The notes under the pieces: generated by a model
Told to the model about the DNA's origin: nothing
Seen by the model: the letters and a program-made list of their open reading frames with translations, nothing else
Databases searched by the model: none
Assembly (NCBI GenBank): GCA_001818155.1
Contig: MHJU01000019.1
Coordinates: 1 to 44,098, forward strand
Direction of reading: 5' to 3'
Length of the DNA: 44,098 nt
Origin: Candidatus Jacksonbacteria bacterium RIFCSPLOWO2_02_FULL_44_20
GTDB taxonomy: Bacteria > Patescibacteriota > Patescibacteriia > UBA9629
Made by a program: the position numbers and the translations under genes
Shown: one piece after another, positions 20,588-29,732 of the stretch
Layout: each line of letters begins with the position of its first letter
Numbering within the stretch: the stretch's first letter is position 1

Positions 20588-21199
20588 ATGAAAGCAGACG
20601 TCCCTTATTTTAGAATATCTCATTTAGAGGTGTTTTTGCCCAATGTAAAAAGAACTTCACTATACAGGGCAATTACCAGGTGGACAAAAAAGGGCATCAT
20701 CATTAAGTTAAAAAAAGGATACTATGTAACAAAAGAATATGTGGAAAAACATCGTATGGAGAAAGAGTATTGGTACTACCTTGGGAATATTTTGCGATAC
20801 CCCTCTTACGTCTCTGGTGTCTATGTGTTGCAGCATTATCATATACTTACTGAAGTTACCTATCCCATTACTTCTATAACCACAAAATCAACGCGCGCAT
20901 ATTCCAACCCTTTGGGAGATTTCATTTATTACTCCATAACCCCGTCGCTTTATACTGGATACGAGCGGCTTTTTTATTATAACGAGCCCATTTATGTTGC
21001 GACAAAAGCAAAGGCGTTATTTGATTATTTGTATATGAAGTATGGTAAAAGCAAAGCGACGAGAGAACACATAATTGTCAAAGAGCGTTTAAATTTAGAA
21101 AGCTTTACCGTCGCTCAAAAAAAAGAATTCAAAAGTTACTGCGTTATGTCTCGAAAAAAAGTTTTGCAAACACTCGCCCTTGAAAATTTCCAGGGCTAA
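20588..21199 (+). CDS. AbiEi-like antitoxin / transcriptional regulator
   Basis: wHTH N-terminus 'SLYRAITRWTKKGIIIKLKKGYYV', 'YPSYVSGVYVLQHYHILTEV', 'ATKAKALFDYLYMKYG'; precedes AbiEii. Confidence 0.82.
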   Translation: MKADVPYFRISHLEVFLPNVKRTSLYRAITRWTKKGIIIKLKKGYYVTKEYVEKHRMEKEYWYYLGNILRYPSYVSGVYVLQHYHILTEVTYPITSITTKSTRAYSNPLGDFIYYSITPSLYTGYERLFYYNEPIYVATKAKALFDYLYMKYGKSKATREHIIVKERLNLESFTVAQKKEFKSYCVMSRKKVLQTLALENFQG

Positions 21200-21204
21200 C
21201 AAAC

Positions 21205-22500
21205 ATGAACAATCTGCTTTTAGAATTAAAAACAATCGCGGATCAGGCAAGGCACGAAGACGCCTCTTTTGATAGTATTCGCGTCCGCTTAAAAGAAGTG
21301 CTGCATTATTTTGTCTTGGACTGTATTTACAATTCCGAGTTTAAGGACATGATATTTTACGGAGGCACTTGTTTAAGGATAGTGCATAATTTAGGGCGCA
21401 TGTCGGAAGATTTGGATTTTGAGTGGAGCAGAAACGACTTTGAGAAGTTGGCGGCTGCACTGGAGAGCTATTTTAAAAAGGATATACAAGTGCATACAAA
21501 AACGCAAGTGAACACGGAAAACGCGATTTGCCGCATTACACTTTCTTTTGCAGTTTTGCGCGAACTGGGGTTGTCATCTTTCAAGGAAGAAACTTTACGG
21601 ATTAAAGTAGAAATACGGTTCGTAACCGCTGATTATCTAGTTTCTATTACGCCAGTACATACACCAAAAACAGCATACGGGAAATCGTTTGTGCTCAAGC
21701 ACTACGATTTACCTACGCTATTTGCAGGCAAACTCTCTGCAATTTTAGATCGCCCTAAAAAAGGATTCACTGCCGGTGATCCGCAAGAGGGCATAAATTT
21801 TAAGGGGCGCGATTTTTTTGATCTTTTATGGTATATGGAGAAAGGAATTATCCCCAACAAAAAAATGCTTGAAGCAAACGGCCATGCCATGAGCATTGGA
21901 GAAGTGTTTGATATAATCAGTATTTTTATAGCGCAAAGGGATATGGAAAATGGATTGAGGAAAGATCTTGAACCGTTACTTAAAAATCAGCGATTTGTGG
22001 CAAATTTTGTTGAGACATTTCGTGATGTGTTTACGCGGTTAAAACAGGAACGGTATACTTCAAGGAAGATAGAGCGGTTGGAGCGAGTAAAGGTAAGCCA
22101 AGATTTTCACAATGATAATCATTCTTTTATTTTTCAGTACAATACCGTAGATAGCTCTATGTTGATTACATTTACTTTTATGCTCACTTGGGAATTTTTG
22201 CAATATAGCGGTAGCGGTAAAGCAGGTGTTCCACTGGATTCCGTAAACCAAGATATCATTTTTACTCAAGGATCAGTACACAAAAATGCAAACCAATATG
22301 TTCCACTCTTGAACCGCAAAATAGATGAATATCTGAAACAGCACAATAATGAGGTTTATTTTGAGCAGTGGAAATCAAAGCTTATTCGAACTTCAACCGG
22401 TAACAATTTTAATCCTGAAAAAGAGATTGTCTTTACAGATGCTAATGAGCTTTTGAATAAAGCAGTAACTTTAGAAGAACTTGCCATGACGGCGCAATAG
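21205..22500 (+). CDS. AbiEii/AbiGii-type nucleotidyltransferase toxin with extended C-terminus
   Basis: 'MIFYGGTCLRIVHNLGRMSEDLDFEW' NTase motif and 'GRDFFDLLWYME'. Confidence 0.87.
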   Translation: MNNLLLELKTIADQARHEDASFDSIRVRLKEVLHYFVLDCIYNSEFKDMIFYGGTCLRIVHNLGRMSEDLDFEWSRNDFEKLAAALESYFKKDIQVHTKTQVNTENAICRITLSFAVLRELGLSSFKEETLRIKVEIRFVTADYLVSITPVHTPKTAYGKSFVLKHYDLPTLFAGKLSAILDRPKKGFTAGDPQEGINFKGRDFFDLLWYMEKGIIPNKKMLEANGHAMSIGEVFDIISIFIAQRDMENGLRKDLEPLLKNQRFVANFVETFRDVFTRLKQERYTSRKIERLERVKVSQDFHNDNHSFIFQYNTVDSSMLITFTFMLTWEFLQYSGSGKAGVPLDSVNQDIIFTQGSVHKNANQYVPLLNRKIDEYLKQHNNEVYFEQWKSKLIRTSTGNNFNPEKEIVFTDANELLNKAVTLEELAMTAQ

Positions 22501-22504
22501 TCAT

Positions 22505-22533
22505 TTGACAAATTTTAATCTGTAGATTATTAT
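22505..22533 (+). promoter_or_regulatory. his operon promoter
   Basis: TTGACA (22505-22510)-N17-TATTAT (22528-22533), 5 nt after AbiEii stop. Confidence 0.7.
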
Positions 22534-22556
22534 CGTAATATGTTAATATACATGTT

Positions 22557-22628
22557 ATGAAAGCACAGTTTGCGCAAATTCATCATCATCTCTTAATCCC
22601 CTATATGCTCTTAAAGAAGCGGCAATAA
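22557..22628 (+). CDS. His leader peptide MKAQFAQIHHHLLIPYMLLKKRQ
   Basis: 23-aa ORF with three consecutive CAT His codons (22581-22589) between promoter and terminator, upstream of hisG. Confidence 0.75.
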   Translation: MKAQFAQIHHHLLIPYMLLKKRQ

Positions 22629-22651
22629 TGAGTTTGTGATCAGTAGTTTAT

Positions 22652-22688
22652 AAATATCCCTTCTTTAAACGAGAGGGGATTTTTGTTT
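22652..22688 (+). terminator. his attenuator terminator hairpin
   Basis: AAATATCCCTTC-TTTAAAC-GAGAGGGGATTTTTGTTTG; competing leader segments TTAAAGAAG (22611-22619) and AATCCCCT (22595-22602). Confidence 0.72.
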
Positions 22689-22705
22689 GTATAGAGCGAA
22701 AAAAT

Positions 22706-23581
22706 ATGAAACCAAACGGCAACAACGTAAAAATTGCGATTCAGAAAGATGGAAAACTTGCAGAAGATTCGTCGCAACTTTTGAAACAGGCGGGATTTAT
22801 TTTTGAAGCGGGGAAAGGCAAGCTTCTTGCATCGTGCGAAAATTTTCCGCTTGATATTTTATTTGTGCGAGATGACGATATTCCAGAATATGTACGCGAT
22901 GGCGTGTGTGATTTAGGCATAGTGGGGCAGGATATTTTAAGACAAGGCAATTTTCAACTTACAACAATTACGGAGCTTGGCTTTGGCAAATGCCGGCTTT
23001 CTATCGCGGCGCCAAAGGAAAGCGGTATCGCAGATGTCCGCGAACTTGAAGGGAAAACGATTGCGACATCTTTTCCAGCCATCCTTGCCGAATATCTAAA
23101 AGCTAACGCAATTCAGGCTCATGTCATCACCATTTCCGGATCAGTTGAAATTACGCCGGCATTAGGAGTTGCAGACGCGATTTGCGATCTTGTTTCAACT
23201 GGAAGCACATTAAAGATCCATGAATTAGTTGAAATTACAACTATATTTAAATCAGAGGCAGTGCTTGTCGGGCAAACTAAATCATCTAGAAACGAAAGAA
23301 AAGCGCAACTCATTGAAAATTTTACCCGCCGCATTCGCGCTGTCCTTACCGCTCAAAAAACCAAGTATATTCTTCTCAATGCCCCGAAAGATAAGGTGAG
23401 CGAGATTGCGCAGGCGATTCCGGGCGTAAAAAGTCCAACCGTACTGCCTCTTTATGATCCAGATTGGGTTTCAATTCACTCTGTGGTGAGCGAGGATGTT
23501 TTTTGGGAAACAGTTGATAAATTAAAATCACTCGGCGCGCAGGAAATTCTTGTGCTCCCGATTGAAAAAATGATTCTATGA
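22706..23581 (+). CDS. hisG: ATP phosphoribosyltransferase (long form)
   Basis: 'VKIAIQKDGKLAEDSSQLLKQAG...DLGIVGQDIL...DAICDLVSTGSTLK', C-terminal regulatory domain. Confidence 0.95.
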   Translation: MKPNGNNVKIAIQKDGKLAEDSSQLLKQAGFIFEAGKGKLLASCENFPLDILFVRDDDIPEYVRDGVCDLGIVGQDILRQGNFQLTTITELGFGKCRLSIAAPKESGIADVRELEGKTIATSFPAILAEYLKANAIQAHVITISGSVEITPALGVADAICDLVSTGSTLKIHELVEITTIFKSEAVLVGQTKSSRNERKAQLIENFTRRIRAVLTAQKTKYILLNAPKDKVSEIAQAIPGVKSPTVLPLYDPDWVSIHSVVSEDVFWETVDKLKSLGAQEILVLPIEKMIL

Positions 23582-24924
23582 TAAACGAAAAAAATAATAC
23601 TTTTGAAAAAGCATCGCGAAGCGGTATTCAAGTGTATGAATGGGCAAAAGCGCCAGAGGAGATTAAGGAAAAAATTATGCGCCGCGCGCAAGCTGATATG
23701 GGGGCAATAGAAAAAGAAGTGGCGCAGTGGATTGCAAAGCTTGTGCAAGGAGGAGACAAGGCGATGGTTGAATATGCGCAAAAATATGATGATCCGAAGT
23801 TTGCGCTTGAAAAACTCCGGGTGAGTGATGCGGATATAAAAGAGGCATACGAAAATACAGATACCAAAGTATTGCAGATGATCCGCGAACAAATCCGCAT
23901 CTCCCGCGCGTTTCATGAGGAGCAGGCGAAACGCATAGAAAAAATATGGCAGATAGAAACTGTTCCGGGCGTAATCACTGGCGTAAAAAAAACGCCTATT
24001 GAGTCTGTCGGGCTGTATGTTCCGGCTGGGAAAGCGCCGCTTCCAACAGTTGCGCAGATTTTAACGGTTGCGGCAAAAACCGCTGGAGTTCCGCGAATAG
24101 TTGTATGTTTTTCGCCTACAGACAAACACTATGAAATTATCGTAGCGGCAAACCTCGCAGGGGCAGACGAAATATATCGCGTGGGCGGCATTGCGGCGAT
24201 CGCGGCGCTTGCTTATGGAACAGAGACCATCAAGCCAGTCTGTAAAATTGCGGGTCCGGGAAGTCCGTATGTGCAGGCGGCAAAACTCCAAGTTGCTGGG
24301 CGCGTTGGTATTGATATGCTTTCTGGTCCATCAGAAGCTTTGATAATGGCAGACGAAACTTCTAATCCAGCATATTTGGCCGCAGACATTTTAGCGCGTG
24401 CTGAACATGGAGGAGATTCTGCCGGAGTTCTAGTAACGTATTCTTACGAAATCGCGCGAAAGACTAAAGAGGAAGTGGAACGACAATCCCCGACTCTCTC
24501 GCGGCAAAAGTACATTCAAGAGGCGCTTGCAAAGTATTGCGCGATTATTGTCGTTTCAAGCGAGGAAGAGTTGATTGAATTCGCAAATGAATACGGAGCC
24601 GAACACCTTGAGATACAAACAAGGGAGCCGGAGCGAATTTTTGCCCTTGTTAAGAATGCGGGCTCGGTTTTCTTGGGGGCTTACGCGCCGGTTGCGGTTG
24701 GCGATTACGCAAGCGGCACCAATCATTGTTTGCCAACTGGCAGGGCAACAAAATTTTCATCGCCCATTGGAATTGAAACGTTTATGAAAACAATTCAGTT
24801 TCAACGATTAAGCCGTAACGGACTTAAAACCTTGCAACCGATCGTGCAGGCAATTTCTCGAATTGAGGGATTAGACGCGCACGAGAGGTCGGTAAATATA
24901 CGATTTGACGACTATGACAATTGA
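23578..24924 (+). CDS. hisD: Histidinol dehydrogenase
   Basis: 'PIESVGLYVPAGKAPLPTVAQILTVAAKTAGVPRIVV...GPGSPYVQAAK...GPSEALIMADE...GTNHCLPTG'. Confidence 0.97.
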   Translation: MINEKNNTFEKASRSGIQVYEWAKAPEEIKEKIMRRAQADMGAIEKEVAQWIAKLVQGGDKAMVEYAQKYDDPKFALEKLRVSDADIKEAYENTDTKVLQMIREQIRISRAFHEEQAKRIEKIWQIETVPGVITGVKKTPIESVGLYVPAGKAPLPTVAQILTVAAKTAGVPRIVVCFSPTDKHYEIIVAANLAGADEIYRVGGIAAIAALAYGTETIKPVCKIAGPGSPYVQAAKLQVAGRVGIDMLSGPSEALIMADETSNPAYLAADILARAEHGGDSAGVLVTYSYEIARKTKEEVERQSPTLSRQKYIQEALAKYCAIIVVSSEEELIEFANEYGAEHLEIQTREPERIFALVKNAGSVFLGAYAPVAVGDYASGTNHCLPTGRATKFSSPIGIETFMKTIQFQRLSRNGLKTLQPIVQAISRIEGLDAHERSVNIRFDDYDN

Positions 24925-26296
24925 ACGAGTACAAAACAAAGAAACTGATTTTTTATCCATGAGTGCCCCCCAACTTAAAGACGAGCTTATTGCCGTAACA
25001 GTTGGCGGGGCAACAGGAGAGATTGATAATAGTAAACGCGCTCTGCTGTTTTGCGAATATGTGCAACGCGCATTTCCGAAGATTGCCATTTCTTCTCTTA
25101 CCCCTTTTGACACCGCAGTGGCGCTGAATTCTATTTTTGCCACGGCAGAAGTAGTGAAAGAAGGAAAACCTATTTCAGTATTTGTTAAAATTCATATTGA
25201 ATCTGGAACCAAAAGTGTGAGCGCCGTTGGTGTAGAAGGGGAGTATCAAAATGCGCGCTGTCTTATAGATGCGGGACTGCCTGTTCTTGCGCCTATTGCA
25301 ACGAGCGAGAATAAAAATTATCCACTGCTCATGTATCCAAAGGTGGAATCTCAAACACTGTTTACCCTTTTGGAGGCCTCGTATGCGGAAAACAAAGCGC
25401 GTCTTGGGTATGATGATTTTGCGCTCTTGGCTGAAATGGATAAAAAAATTCAAGAATCAGACAAGGAGTCGTTTCAGTATATTACTCCAGAGAACGCGCG
25501 CGAAAGTATGGTGCAAACGCTTTTTTTAGAGAGGTTTGGGCAAGGGAAGCGCGTTGATGAATGGTATTCCAAAGACGCTAATTTTTTCTTGCCGGGCATT
25601 GAGGGTGGAATAGATTTTGGCGCACTTCGCATGGCTTCATGGAATATAAACGGAGTGCGGTATGTGGAGACGCTGGAAGGCATAATTGCGCATGCGCGCC
25701 GTGTTCTTTCTTATGATGGCGAGGATAAAGTTGCGGCGATTATTTCTCATGGAGACGATCACGCGGGGAATGTGTTTGTAGACCGCGCGGAAAAACGCGC
25801 TTTCGTGTTTGATCCGGCCTTTGCCGGCATTAATCCCGCGTGCCTGTCGCATCTAAAAGCTTTTGCGCACACGGGGTTTCTTCCTATGGGAGGGATGTAT
25901 TATAATTCGCGCTTGAAAACCTGTTCCTATGAGTTTGACAGGGGAAACAATATGATGAAGGTGATGATTGATTTTAGTTCCGCTCCCGCGTATGAAGCTC
26001 ATAGCGCGATAGCGAAAAGTATTTTAGAGAAACGCATTGTGCCGCTTTTTGAACGCGCAGTTGAGGGTGGTATTGATGGAGAGAAAGAAAAACAGCGTAT
26101 CGCGCTTGGGCTTGCCGGGTGCGCGCTTCTTACTATCCACATCGGACAACTTCTTGAAAGAGGAGATGGCAGAGGTGTCGGGCTATTGCCAATGACAATA
26201 CTGTGCGCGGAGCTTCAGGGGCTACCGATCCTTGACGAGTTGCGGTTACGATTGCAAGAAGCGCGAGGGGTAAAGAGACCATTGACCATGTCATAA
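24905..26296 (+). CDS. APH/choline-kinase-fold protein embedded in his operon
   Basis: 'ISHGDDHAGNVFVDRAEKRAFVFDPAFAG' resembles HGDxHxxN catalytic and metal-binding loops. Confidence 0.65.
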   Translation: MTTMTIERVQNKETDFLSMSAPQLKDELIAVTVGGATGEIDNSKRALLFCEYVQRAFPKIAISSLTPFDTAVALNSIFATAEVVKEGKPISVFVKIHIESGTKSVSAVGVEGEYQNARCLIDAGLPVLAPIATSENKNYPLLMYPKVESQTLFTLLEASYAENKARLGYDDFALLAEMDKKIQESDKESFQYITPENARESMVQTLFLERFGQGKRVDEWYSKDANFFLPGIEGGIDFGALRMASWNINGVRYVETLEGIIAHARRVLSYDGEDKVAAIISHGDDHAGNVFVDRAEKRAFVFDPAFAGINPACLSHLKAFAHTGFLPMGGMYYNSRLKTCSYEFDRGNNMMKVMIDFSSAPAYEAHSAIAKSILEKRIVPLFERAVEGGIDGEKEKQRIALGLAGCALLTIHIGQLLERGDGRGVGLLPMTILCAELQGLPILDELRLRLQEARGVKRPLTMS

Positions 26297-26360
26297 AACA
26301 CAAAGGCGTGATTGTGGAAGTAAAAGATGCGATAGACTAATTTCTAATTTCCAAATCTCA

Positions 26361-26948
26361 ATGATCAAACCGTCTGTAACAATTCTGTATTATGGAGCAG
26401 GTAACATTAAAAGCGTTACAAACGCGCTTGATATGATTGGCGCGAAATGGAAAGTAACGAGCAATTCGCGAGAAATCGTCGAGGCGTCAAAAATAATTAT
26501 GCCTGGAGTAGGATCTGCGAAAGCGGCGATGGAGGAGTTGCAGAAGCGTTGGCTTGTTGAAACGATACGCAATGTTAAAGCACCGTTTTTGGGGATTTGT
26601 TTGGGGATGCAGTTATTGTTTGATTATTCAGAGGAGAGGGATGTGGCATGTTTGGGGATTATAAAAGGGCGCGTGAGGAGATTTCAAGGTAAGGGGTTAA
26701 AAGTGCCGCAGATTGGATGGAATAGAGTTAAAAATGAAAAGTTAAAAATGAAAAGTGGATCGTACTTCTACTTCGTCCATTCATATTATTGTGTTCCGGA
26801 AGATGGCGGAGTAGTTACGGCAACGACAGAGTACGGCGTAGAGTTTGCCTCCGCGGTTCAATATAAAAATTTTTACGGCGTACAGTTTCATCCGGAAAAA
26901 TCAGGGGAAGCGGGGTTGGAGGTGTTAAAAAATTTCTGTGAATTATAA
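26361..26948 (+). CDS. hisH: Imidazole glycerol phosphate synthase glutaminase subunit
   Basis: 'ILYYGAGNIKSVTNAL...PGVGSAKAAMEEL...APFLGICLGMQLLF...GVQFHPEKSG'. Confidence 0.95.
   Translation: MIKPSVTILYYGAGNIKSVTNALDMIGAKWKVTSNSREIVEASKIIMPGVGSAKAAMEELQKRWLVETIRNVKAPFLGICLGMQLLFDYSEERDVACLGIIKGRVRRFQGKGLKVPQIGWNRVKNEKLKMKSGSYFYFVHSYYCVPEDGGVVTATTEYGVEFASAVQYKNFYGVQFHPEKSGEAGLEVLKNFCEL
26727..26754 (+). repeat. 14-bp tandem duplication (GTTAAAAATGAAAA)x2
   Basis: Exact duplication inside hisH encoding KNEKLKMK. Confidence 0.85.
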
Positions 26949-26953
26949 AATCT

Positions 26954-27676
26954 ATGACAATCATTCCCGCGATTGATTTGCTTCGCGGCCAAGCGGTTCG
27001 CTTAAAGCAAGGCGATTACAATCAGAAAACCGTGTATTCAGACGATCCTGTATCAGTGGCAAAAAAATTTGTCTCGCAAGGAGCGCGGTTTTTGCACGTT
27101 GTTGACTTAGACGGTGCGCGGACGGGCAAAATGAAAAATCTGACATTGATTTTAGAAATGCGCAAATGCGCGGCGGTTCCTATGCAAGTTGGCGGCGGTA
27201 TTCGATCCATAGAAAGTGTGGAGTACTTGTTGAAAAGTGGTATTGATAGGGTTGTGCTTGGCACGCGGGTACTTGAAGATACGATATTTTTGCAAAACGC
27301 GATCAAGCAATTTAGTTACGAAAAAATCGCCGTGAGCCTTGATGTTAAAAACGGGACTCCAATGGTAAATGGATGGAGAGAAAAGGGTTTGAAAAGTGTT
27401 GAATCACTGTTGCAGTTTTTTAAGGACGCCGGAGTTTCGTATCTTATTTATACCGATATTGTCCGCGACGGAATGCAAACAGGTCCGAATTTTCAGGCGA
27501 TAAAAAAAATCATCCCCTTCGGATTTCAACTTATCGCTTCAGGCGGAGTGTCGCGTTTGGCAGATGTGGAGAGGCTTGAAGAAATGGGTTTGTATGGATG
27601 TATTGTGGGACGGGCGATGTATGAAGATAAAAATTTTTTAAACAATGCTAACCAAACGAATTATCCCGTGTCTTGA
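26954..27676 (+). CDS. hisA: ProFAR isomerase
   Basis: 'TIIPAIDLLRGQAVRLKQGDY...VGGGIRSIESVEYLL...YTDIVRDGMQTGPN'. Confidence 0.95.
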   Translation: MTIIPAIDLLRGQAVRLKQGDYNQKTVYSDDPVSVAKKFVSQGARFLHVVDLDGARTGKMKNLTLILEMRKCAAVPMQVGGGIRSIESVEYLLKSGIDRVVLGTRVLEDTIFLQNAIKQFSYEKIAVSLDVKNGTPMVNGWREKGLKSVESLLQFFKDAGVSYLIYTDIVRDGMQTGPNFQAIKKIIPFGFQLIASGGVSRLADVERLEEMGLYGCIVGRAMYEDKNFLNNANQTNYPVS

Positions 27677-28400
27677 CATTAAAGACAACCGCATCACAAA
27701 GGGAGTACAATTTAAGGACCACAAAGATATGGGCGATCCGGTAGAACGAGCGCGGTTTTACTATGAACAATGCGCAGACGAGCTGGTGCTCTACGACATC
27801 ATGGCAAGTCCGCAAAAACGCGGACCAAATTTTTCTTTGATAGAACGAGTGGGAAAGAGAATTTTTATTCCCTTTGCGATTGCTGGCGGCGTTCGCTCGG
27901 TTGAAGACGCAAGAAGGGCGCTTAACGCCGGCGCGGATAAAGTTTCTATAAATACGCCGGCGCTTGAGAATCCAGATTTAATCAATAAATTGGCAGAGAA
28001 CTTTGGCTCGCAGTGCGTAGTTATTGGAATTGATGTCAAAGATGGGTGGGTTTATAAAAATACCGGCAGCGCGCGCGAGACACAAAAAACGAAGTGGAGT
28101 GTAATTGATTGGGCAAAAGAAGTAGAACGCCGCGGCGCCGGCGAGATCGTATTGAACACAATGCAAACCGACGGCATGCGGGCGGGGTACGATATAAAAA
28201 CGTGCCGCTCGGTTGCGAAATCAGCGCGCATTCCAGTCATTGCCTCTGGCGGAGCGGGAACACGCGAGCATTTTTTAGACGTGTTTACAAAAACAGAAGT
28301 GAGCGGCGCGCTTGCGGCAACGGTCTTTCATACAAACGCGATTAAAATACCGTCGCTTAAAAAATATCTGCAAAAATGCGGATTGCCTATACGAATATGA
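27645..28400 (+). CDS. hisF: Imidazole glycerol phosphate synthase cyclase subunit
   Basis: 'MLTKRIIPCLDIKDNRITKGVQF...AGGVRSVEDARRALNAGADKVSINT...ASGGAGTREHF'. Confidence 0.96.
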   Translation: MLTKRIIPCLDIKDNRITKGVQFKDHKDMGDPVERARFYYEQCADELVLYDIMASPQKRGPNFSLIERVGKRIFIPFAIAGGVRSVEDARRALNAGADKVSINTPALENPDLINKLAENFGSQCVVIGIDVKDGWVYKNTGSARETQKTKWSVIDWAKEVERRGAGEIVLNTMQTDGMRAGYDIKTCRSVAKSARIPVIASGGAGTREHFLDVFTKTEVSGALAATVFHTNAIKIPSLKKYLQKCGLPIRI

Positions 28401-29008
28401 ATTTAAACTTCAAAAAACAAAACGGGTTAATCCCCGCAATCATCCAAGATGCAAATACTTGCAAAGTGCTTATGCTAGGGTTTATGAATAAGGAAGCCTA
28501 TCAAAAAACGCGTCGCGTAAAACGCGTTACATTTTACAGCAGATCAAAAAAGCGGCTTTGGACAAAAGGAGAAACGAGCGGCAATTATTTAGAAGTCATA
28601 GACATCAAACCCGATTGCGATCGTGACGCGATACTTATTAAAGCGATTCCAAAAGGGCCGACTTGCCACAGTGGCGCGTATTCGTGCTTTGGAGAAGAGT
28701 CCGGAAACAATATTATTTTTTTTGAATCTCTCCGCGCTCTTGTAGAAAAACGTAAACACGACATGCCGCTTGTCCCGTCTGCGGGGGAAGGTTCTTATAC
28801 CGCATCCCTCTTTCGCGCCGGTATTTCCAAAATCGGCGCAAAAGTTACTGAAGAAGCGGAAGAAGTCGCGCGCGCGGCAACAAGCGAGGGGAAAGCGCGA
28901 GTAATAGAAGAAATAAGCGATTTATTGTATCACCTCACTGTTTTAATGGCGGAGACAAAAGTAGACTGGATGGATATAGAGCAGTGTCTTATTCTGCGGA
29001 GAGGTTAG
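28397..29008 (+). CDS. hisIE: Bifunctional phosphoribosyl-AMP cyclohydrolase / phosphoribosyl-ATP pyrophosphatase
   Basis: 'VLMLGFMNKEAYQKT...FYSRSKKRLWTKGETSGN...DCDRDAILI' plus HisE 'TEEAEEVARAA...EEISDLLYHLTVLMAE'; ATGA coupling. Confidence 0.95.
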   Translation: MNLNFKKQNGLIPAIIQDANTCKVLMLGFMNKEAYQKTRRVKRVTFYSRSKKRLWTKGETSGNYLEVIDIKPDCDRDAILIKAIPKGPTCHSGAYSCFGEESGNNIIFFESLRALVEKRKHDMPLVPSAGEGSYTASLFRAGISKIGAKVTEEAEEVARAATSEGKARVIEEISDLLYHLTVLMAETKVDWMDIEQCLILRRG

Positions 29009-29054
29009 CCGTACTTGTTTTTTCCGCTGGTTTTTCTATACTAGAAACCGCATC

Positions 29055-29732
29055 ATGAAAGTTATTTTACAGAAAATCAGCGCGGTAATTTTTGACATGG
29101 ACGGCGTGCTTGTTGACACAGAACGCGCGTGGTTTCAGACAACAAAAGAATGGTTATCCGGCTTAATAGGAAAAGAGTGGGACGAGGAGGAAGAAGCCCG
29201 CATTACAGGAAAAAGCGTGCCTGATATTTATCGTTCTTTGAATGAACTTTATCATTTTTCAATAAGCGGCCAGCAATTTTTTGATAAGTATAATGCGCTC
29301 GCAGAATATGTGTATATGGTGCATGCGGAGCTAAATGGGCATGTCAAAGAAACGCTTGAGGCGATACGCGGTTCTAAAATTCCTATTGCTCTTTCTTCTT
29401 CATCGCCGCATTCATGGATTAACATGATGCTCTCTCGTTTCTCACTTGCGCAGTATTTTTCTGTAGTCGCAAGTTCTGAAGACGTCGGTTTTGTTGGGAA
29501 ACCCGCGCCGGATATTTACCTTTATACAGCGAAACTGTTGAATATAGCTCCAAGAGAATGCGCCGTTATTGAGGACTCAAGAAACGGCGTTCTTTCAGCC
29601 GTATCCGCGGGAATGATCGCAATCGGCTATCGGACGCTGTATAATCCAAACCAAGATTTAAGCAAAGCCCGCGCAATTATCACTGATTTAATGGATATTG
29701 CATCGTATCTTCATGAGAATAACCACACTTGA
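29055..29732 (+). CDS. HAD-superfamily hydrolase (subfamily IA)
   Basis: 'VIFDMDGVLVDTE', 'ALSSSSPHSWI', 'GKPAPDIYLYTAKLLNIAPRECAVIEDSRNGV'. Confidence 0.92.
   Translation: MKVILQKISAVIFDMDGVLVDTERAWFQTTKEWLSGLIGKEWDEEEEARITGKSVPDIYRSLNELYHFSISGQQFFDKYNALAEYVYMVHAELNGHVKETLEAIRGSKIPIALSSSSPHSWINMMLSRFSLAQYFSVVASSEDVGFVGKPAPDIYLYTAKLLNIAPRECAVIEDSRNGVLSAVSAGMIAIGYRTLYNPNQDLSKARAIITDLMDIASYLHENNHT

Follow-up and report, generated by a model that had tools for sequence, protein, structure and literature searches.

The window analysed here is a stretch of 44,098 nucleotides from Candidatus Jacksonbacteria (a genome of 1.07 Mb in 41 contigs, with an estimated completeness of 100%), and it carries a histidine biosynthesis operon on the forward strand, on which all features described below are located. 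The first gene under control is hisG (22706-23581), encoding the long form of HisG with the HisG_C domain (PF01634, 2.9e-51; PF08029, 1.3e-27). For the rest of the operon (23578-29732), the domain search identified hisD (23578-24924), a gene for an APH-fold-like protein of 463 aa (24905-26296; PF01636 at 6e-4, below the cut-off), hisH (26361-26948), hisA (26954-27676), hisF (27645-28400), hisIE (28376-29008) and, as the last gene, one for a HAD phosphatase (29055-29732) [note that hisA and hisF both belong to PF00977, and that the two labels were assigned by gene order]. For comparison we used G001, the one further genome of the same family in the set analysed, also of Ca. Jacksonbacteria, a member of the Patescibacteria (CPR) group; its hisG locus is referred to as L002, and HisG of the window and that of G001 are 57% identical. 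Apart from L030, a contig identical to that of L002, the scan of genome contigs turned up no close relative.

Two differences in gene content are observed between these loci. The place between hisD and hisH, taken by the APH-fold-like gene in the window, is occupied by hisB in G001, and IGPD (PF00475) was not found in the window genome; the APH-fold-like gene could be a replacement, or the pathway may be broken. Upstream of the leader described below, the window has an AbiEi-like/AbiEii toxin-antitoxin pair (20588-22500), while G001 has at this position, directly upstream of the leader, a hisR gene (TrpR-family, PF01371, HisR-like). HisG was identified in 28 of the 381 genomes of the class and in 27 of 380 in the phylum sample, and viral contigs with HisG yielded no relatives.

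Sequence elements in front of hisG

The initial annotation of this region had proposed a histidine attenuator composed of a promoter, a short leader, a terminator and a competing hairpin, and each part was recovered at the coordinates given. The sigma-70-type promoter TTGACA-N17-TATTAT (22505-22533; TTGACA at 22505-22510, TATTAT at 22528-22533) carries 11 of the 12 consensus bases; promoter-like matches of at least 11/12 occur 8 times in the 44-kb window, both strands included. The leader ORF of 23 aa, MKAQFAQIHHHLLIPYMLLKKRQ (22557-22628), contains three CAT histidine codons of predicted regulatory role (22581-22589), and an equivalent leader, with HH retained, is present in L002. An obvious Shine-Dalgarno sequence was not found at the leader start, and a mini-ORF overlapping the leader starts at 22540/22552. 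The intrinsic terminator, which was picked up by the terminator scan, consists of ATCCCTTCTT-TAAAC-GAGAGGGGAT followed by TTTT(G) (22656-22684), with a stem of 10 pairs (22656-22680) and a predicted energy of -12.5 kcal/mol.

The segment TTAAAGAAG (22611-22619), located within the leader ORF, is the predicted antiterminator 5' strand, and its pairing with CTTCTTTAA (22660-22668), noted in the initial annotation, was verified at 9 of 9 positions. Since CTTCTTTAA represents both the antiterminator 3' strand and the terminator 5' arm plus loop, and both structures use 22660-22668, antiterminator and terminator are mutually exclusive. The complementarity between leader and terminator is far above the level of dinucleotide shuffles (z = -4.4; none of 300 shuffles as good), while the fold of the whole leader is by itself ordinary (z = -1.45). 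The longer competing hairpin that had been drawn around this core was a minor over-reading: its outer strands, AATCCCCT (22595-22602) and AGGGGATT (22674-22681), do pair at 8 of 8 positions in the window, but this nested helix is not kept as such in G001, and should be taken as an optional part of the antiterminator. In addition, the fold prediction suggests a possible hairpin of the ribosome-free RNA, 22573-22583 with 22628-22638 (22573-22638), which might keep the leader segment away from the terminator.

Conservation and the modelled switch

In L002, a TTGACA-N17-TAGTAT promoter is followed by a 20-aa leader, MLIKSIIQSHHLSPAFLKKR, a terminator and hisG, and thus the leader ORF and the pairing, on whose conservation before hisG the initial annotation had staked its reading, are both retained in the family relative together with the terminator. 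The antiterminator pairing extends to 12/12 positions in G001, as compared with 9/9 in the window, and the leader-terminator complementarity reaches z = -5.6 against dinucleotide shuffles. The two leader peptides have diverged except for the His codons and the Leu-Lys-Lys-Arg (LKKR) codons, at which the sequence TTAAAGAAGCGG (22611-22622) is identical; TTAAAGAAGCGG and its complement are kept in both family genomes. As a pattern, TTAAAGAAGCGG-N20-50-CTTCTTTAA is present once in the window genome and once in G001, each time before hisG, with no match in the 379 other genomes of the class, and the reversed control pattern gave no match. Judging from these sequences, constraint is distributed as an attenuator would require, and not as would be expected of a functional peptide. 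No covariation can be read from the 9-bp core itself, which is invariant in the only two orthologues available; the covarying antiterminator of a related system (family f157, see below) is counted as support for the window attenuator.

That the terminator merely ends transcription coming from the AbiE-type genes, with no promoter downstream of them and a His-rich ORF arisen by chance, is very improbable. The AbiEi/AbiEii-like genes do end at 22500, directly upstream of the leader, but the relative has hisR in that position and yet the same leader, pairing and terminator, and the leader is the sole ORF of 7-45 aa with HH and a terminator within 100 nt on both strands of the 44-kb window.

In the proposed mechanism, transcription would start some 15-20 nt upstream of the leader ATG, and the 23 codons of the leader would be translated by a ribosome that trails the polymerase. 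With charged His-tRNA in short supply, this ribosome would stall on the CAT codons, its footprint ending near 22594-22600, and TTAAAGAAG would be left free to pair with CTTCTTTAA once the latter is made; this pairing would take up the 5' arm of the terminator, and the polymerase would continue into hisG. If His-tRNA is abundant, the ribosome would proceed to the stop codon (22626) and cover 22611-22619, the terminator would form, and transcription would end. We modelled these states by folding the RNA left free by the ribosome, whose 3' edge was set at a distance of 16 nt, measured from the first nucleotide of the codon in the P site, and the geometry postulated in the initial annotation, that a stall frees the antiterminator strand and a ribosome at the stop covers it, held in the model.

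Once the full terminator is made, the antiterminator is predicted with a probability of 0.995 if the ribosome has stalled at His codon 1, and of 0.925 if at codon 2. At codon 3 this drops to 0.001, and the terminator prevails (0.999) when that codon occupies the A site. Before the 3' arm of the terminator is transcribed, the antiterminator is predicted at 0.998 for all three His codons. The terminator is predicted at 1.0 with the ribosome at the stop codon and at 0.81 without ribosome. In the model, it is the outer helix AATCCCCT/AGGGGATT that accounts for how strongly the equilibrium shifts at codons 1 and 2, and this helix is free only with a stall at one of the two. In L002, with the 3' arm present, the terminator is favoured at equilibrium whatever the state of the ribosome (0.993 and 0.827 at its two His codons). 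The antiterminator is the first to form there, at 0.997 as long as the 3' arm is still to be made, and the switch would have to act kinetically.

Taken together, the sequence, conservation, complementarity and modelled switch give good in silico support to the interpretation as his attenuator, and we estimate at about 90% the probability that this element controls the his operon by ribosome-mediated transcriptional attenuation; from these data we infer the translation of the leader, the stalling and the response of hisG expression.

Control of the window promoter by a HisR (TrpR-family) repressor, with the leader as a relic, is about as improbable as the chance ORF. HisR, a repressor of the TrpR family (PMC9413887), is encoded upstream of hisG in G001 and in many relatives, and the palindrome TGTRTTA-N6-TAAYACA, a candidate for the HisR operator in Patescibacteria on sequence grounds, is found with 13-14 of 14 positions near the promoters of L002, L004, L014 and L167. 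In the window genome, however, estimated as complete, no PF01371 (HisR/TrpR-type) protein was found, and the best operator match at the window promoter is 10/14, a level attained by 20% of shuffles. Because neither the HisR repressor gene nor its operator was found, this genome appears to have no his-specific control besides the attenuator.

Even less probable is a His-responsive T-box or a small-molecule riboswitch in place of the leader-ribosome switch. The position and the terminator would be compatible with any attenuator, but Rfam families are absent from the window at the gathering threshold, a permissive search giving one chance match (E 2.9), and neither the His codons nor the distance that separates them from the antiterminator (9-22 nt across many unrelated loci) would have a role in such a device. 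It is similarly improbable that leader translation works mainly through reinitiation of ribosomes at hisG and not through a terminator switch. Leader genes near structural genes can boost translation in this way (PMC4833913), but here the leader stop and the hisG start are separated by 77 nt with the terminator in between, and the leader segment has been kept complementary to the terminator.

Stand-alone His leaders in other genomes

We searched for an ORF with a doubled residue followed by a terminator at 56 hisG loci, taken from the sample of the class and that of the phylum. An HH ORF with terminator was identified in 18 of the 56 loci, as compared with QQ in 2, NN in 1 and DD, YY and FF in none, while the other doubled residues in the same control gave EE 4, KK 9 and RR 15, the highest count apart from HH. 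About three of the 18 HH loci are ambiguous, namely L010, L110 and L111, which were rejected as HH leaders: in these the HH is part of the TrpR domain, and the pairing does not exceed the level of shuffles. Some of the other HH loci are of the HisR-tail form described below. In L004, L013 and L014, a His leader and a terminator are present, and no antiterminator beyond chance was detected by the simple duplex test.

Strong leader-terminator pairing on the same plan before hisG, with unrelated sequences, was identified in other families (L005, L018, L022, L026, L122 and others), and in those loci the pairing starts 9-22 nt past the last His codon, as the ribosome footprint would require. In addition, His-run leaders with terminators precede hisG in most of the loci fetched from Bacteroidota, Ignavibacteria and Calditrichota (L033-L096). 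These resemble the window in the short leader, the His run and the strong terminator before hisG, but differ in the sequences of leader and terminator, and their HisG is mostly 44-52% identical; a paper describing such leaders in Bacteroidota or the other phyla was not found. Since leaders of this type stand before hisG across families of Patescibacteria, Bacteroidota, Ignavibacteria and Calditrichota, the stand-alone type is common. The window element is very probably a real and conserved his attenuator, ordinary in kind.

The plan, as the initial annotation had pointed out, is that of enterobacterial hisL (Rfam His_leader), in which hisG is preceded by a short leader ORF carrying tandem His codons and by a terminator with which an antiterminator competes (PMC9413887). 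The covariance model of Rfam His_leader gave no match in the window at the gathering threshold or at E<=5. The window leader has three His codons, as against seven in hisL, and two helices suffice in the window because its competing segment is part of the leader ORF, which is a further difference. The His leaders of Firmicutes (B. cereus group, relatives of C. difficile, Erysipelotrichales), which are independent and carry three to five His codons (PMC9413887; for hisS/hisZ, PMC2965389), follow the same logic as the window; they belong to another phylum, and the likeness is one of plan.

The 3' end of hisR as a putative leader

Many Patescibacteria appear to use no separate gene for the leader: within the last 15-40 codons of hisR, which encodes the TrpR-family regulator, a run of His is followed by the antiterminator strand, directly before the terminator and hisG or other genes. 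Examples of such C-terminal tails are ...KNVVHHHKSASSGKRVT* in L103, ...RLTHHSNPSFGKGLS* in L024 and ...ERHHHSSALRGERMASMRSR* in L167. This arrangement was identified at the hisG loci L024, L103, L105, L106, L108, L112, L124 and most of L144-L168, and also at L194, L207, L211, L233, L237, L243, L245, L248, L250, L262 and L274.

Covariation was analysed for family f157, in which HisG is present in 31 of 74 genomes, using 22 sequences (18 with a HisR tail plus four with stand-alone leaders). These share a helix of 20 bp that joins the tail to the stretch reaching through the terminator 5' arm, with 90.9% of cells paired and 10 of the 20 pairs changed on both sides. The helix contains 42 cells with double changes, as compared with 16.8 (sd 3.5) in shuffled controls, which leave the relatedness of the sequences in, and with at most 8 in slid controls, which remove it. 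Only one of the two strands is coding, and constraint on the protein is therefore not sufficient to explain the helix.

For a sample independent of hisG, we collected 110 PF01371 genes from 380 genomes of the phylum, and the tails gave HH in 26, QQ, DD and YY in 1 each, NN in 6 and KK in 37. Among the PF01371 genes followed by a terminator, to which the pairing test was confined, tail-terminator pairing at p<0.05 against shuffles was observed for 15 of 19 His-tailed but 4 of 21 untailed genes (Mann-Whitney p = 8e-5). We believe the HisR-tail form to be real mainly because the His and the pairing criteria are independent of each other. A single hisR gene thus probably provides both the repressor and, through its translated 3' end, the sensor of an attenuator, and the window lineage, which is without hisR and keeps a stand-alone leader, would represent one end of the series.

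Besides hisG, HisR tails are followed by genes for an M20 peptidase (L207, with L211 similar in appearance) and a SLOG-type protein (L218). The gene after the HisR-tail attenuator of L243 (475-1270 as oriented) is histidine-racemase-like (NF052224, 4e-29; CntK, 2e-21; both below the curated cut-offs), suggesting, as far as sequence similarity indicates, that D-histidine or a metabolite derived from His is used by this member of the CPR. A family of about 290 aa ('LLFTCSTINS..F'), without Pfam match, is encoded directly after the HisR-tail attenuators of L247 and L274, and perhaps also at L194, L196, L222, L250 and L262.

The closest known arrangement is trpRBA of C. trachomatis, with a gene for TrpR and a putative Trp leader attenuator between genes (PMC6504234, PMC7755916). 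As in G001, a gene for a TrpR-family repressor is followed by a proposed attenuator and then by biosynthetic genes; this system responds to Trp and not to His, and its leader lies between genes, whereas that of the HisR-tail form is the 3' end of the regulator gene. In the open-access literature, we found no description of the HisR-tail form and nothing relevant on attenuation or leader peptides in Patescibacteria/CPR, in agreement with the initial annotation, which knew of no description in this lineage; a report on the control of the few biosynthetic operons kept by Patescibacteria was likewise not found. The use of a regulator gene 3' end as attenuator sensor is apparently an undescribed form, and it is the part that should surprise the specialist.

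Patescibacteria have small genomes. The findings indicate control by coupled transcription and translation in this group, and predict the codons that matter. The His run with its competing pairing offers a signature for spotting His-regulated genes of unknown function. The HisR-tail form, if true, would represent a leader peptide arising from, or captured by, an ordinary protein gene, and would make the origin of leader peptides testable.
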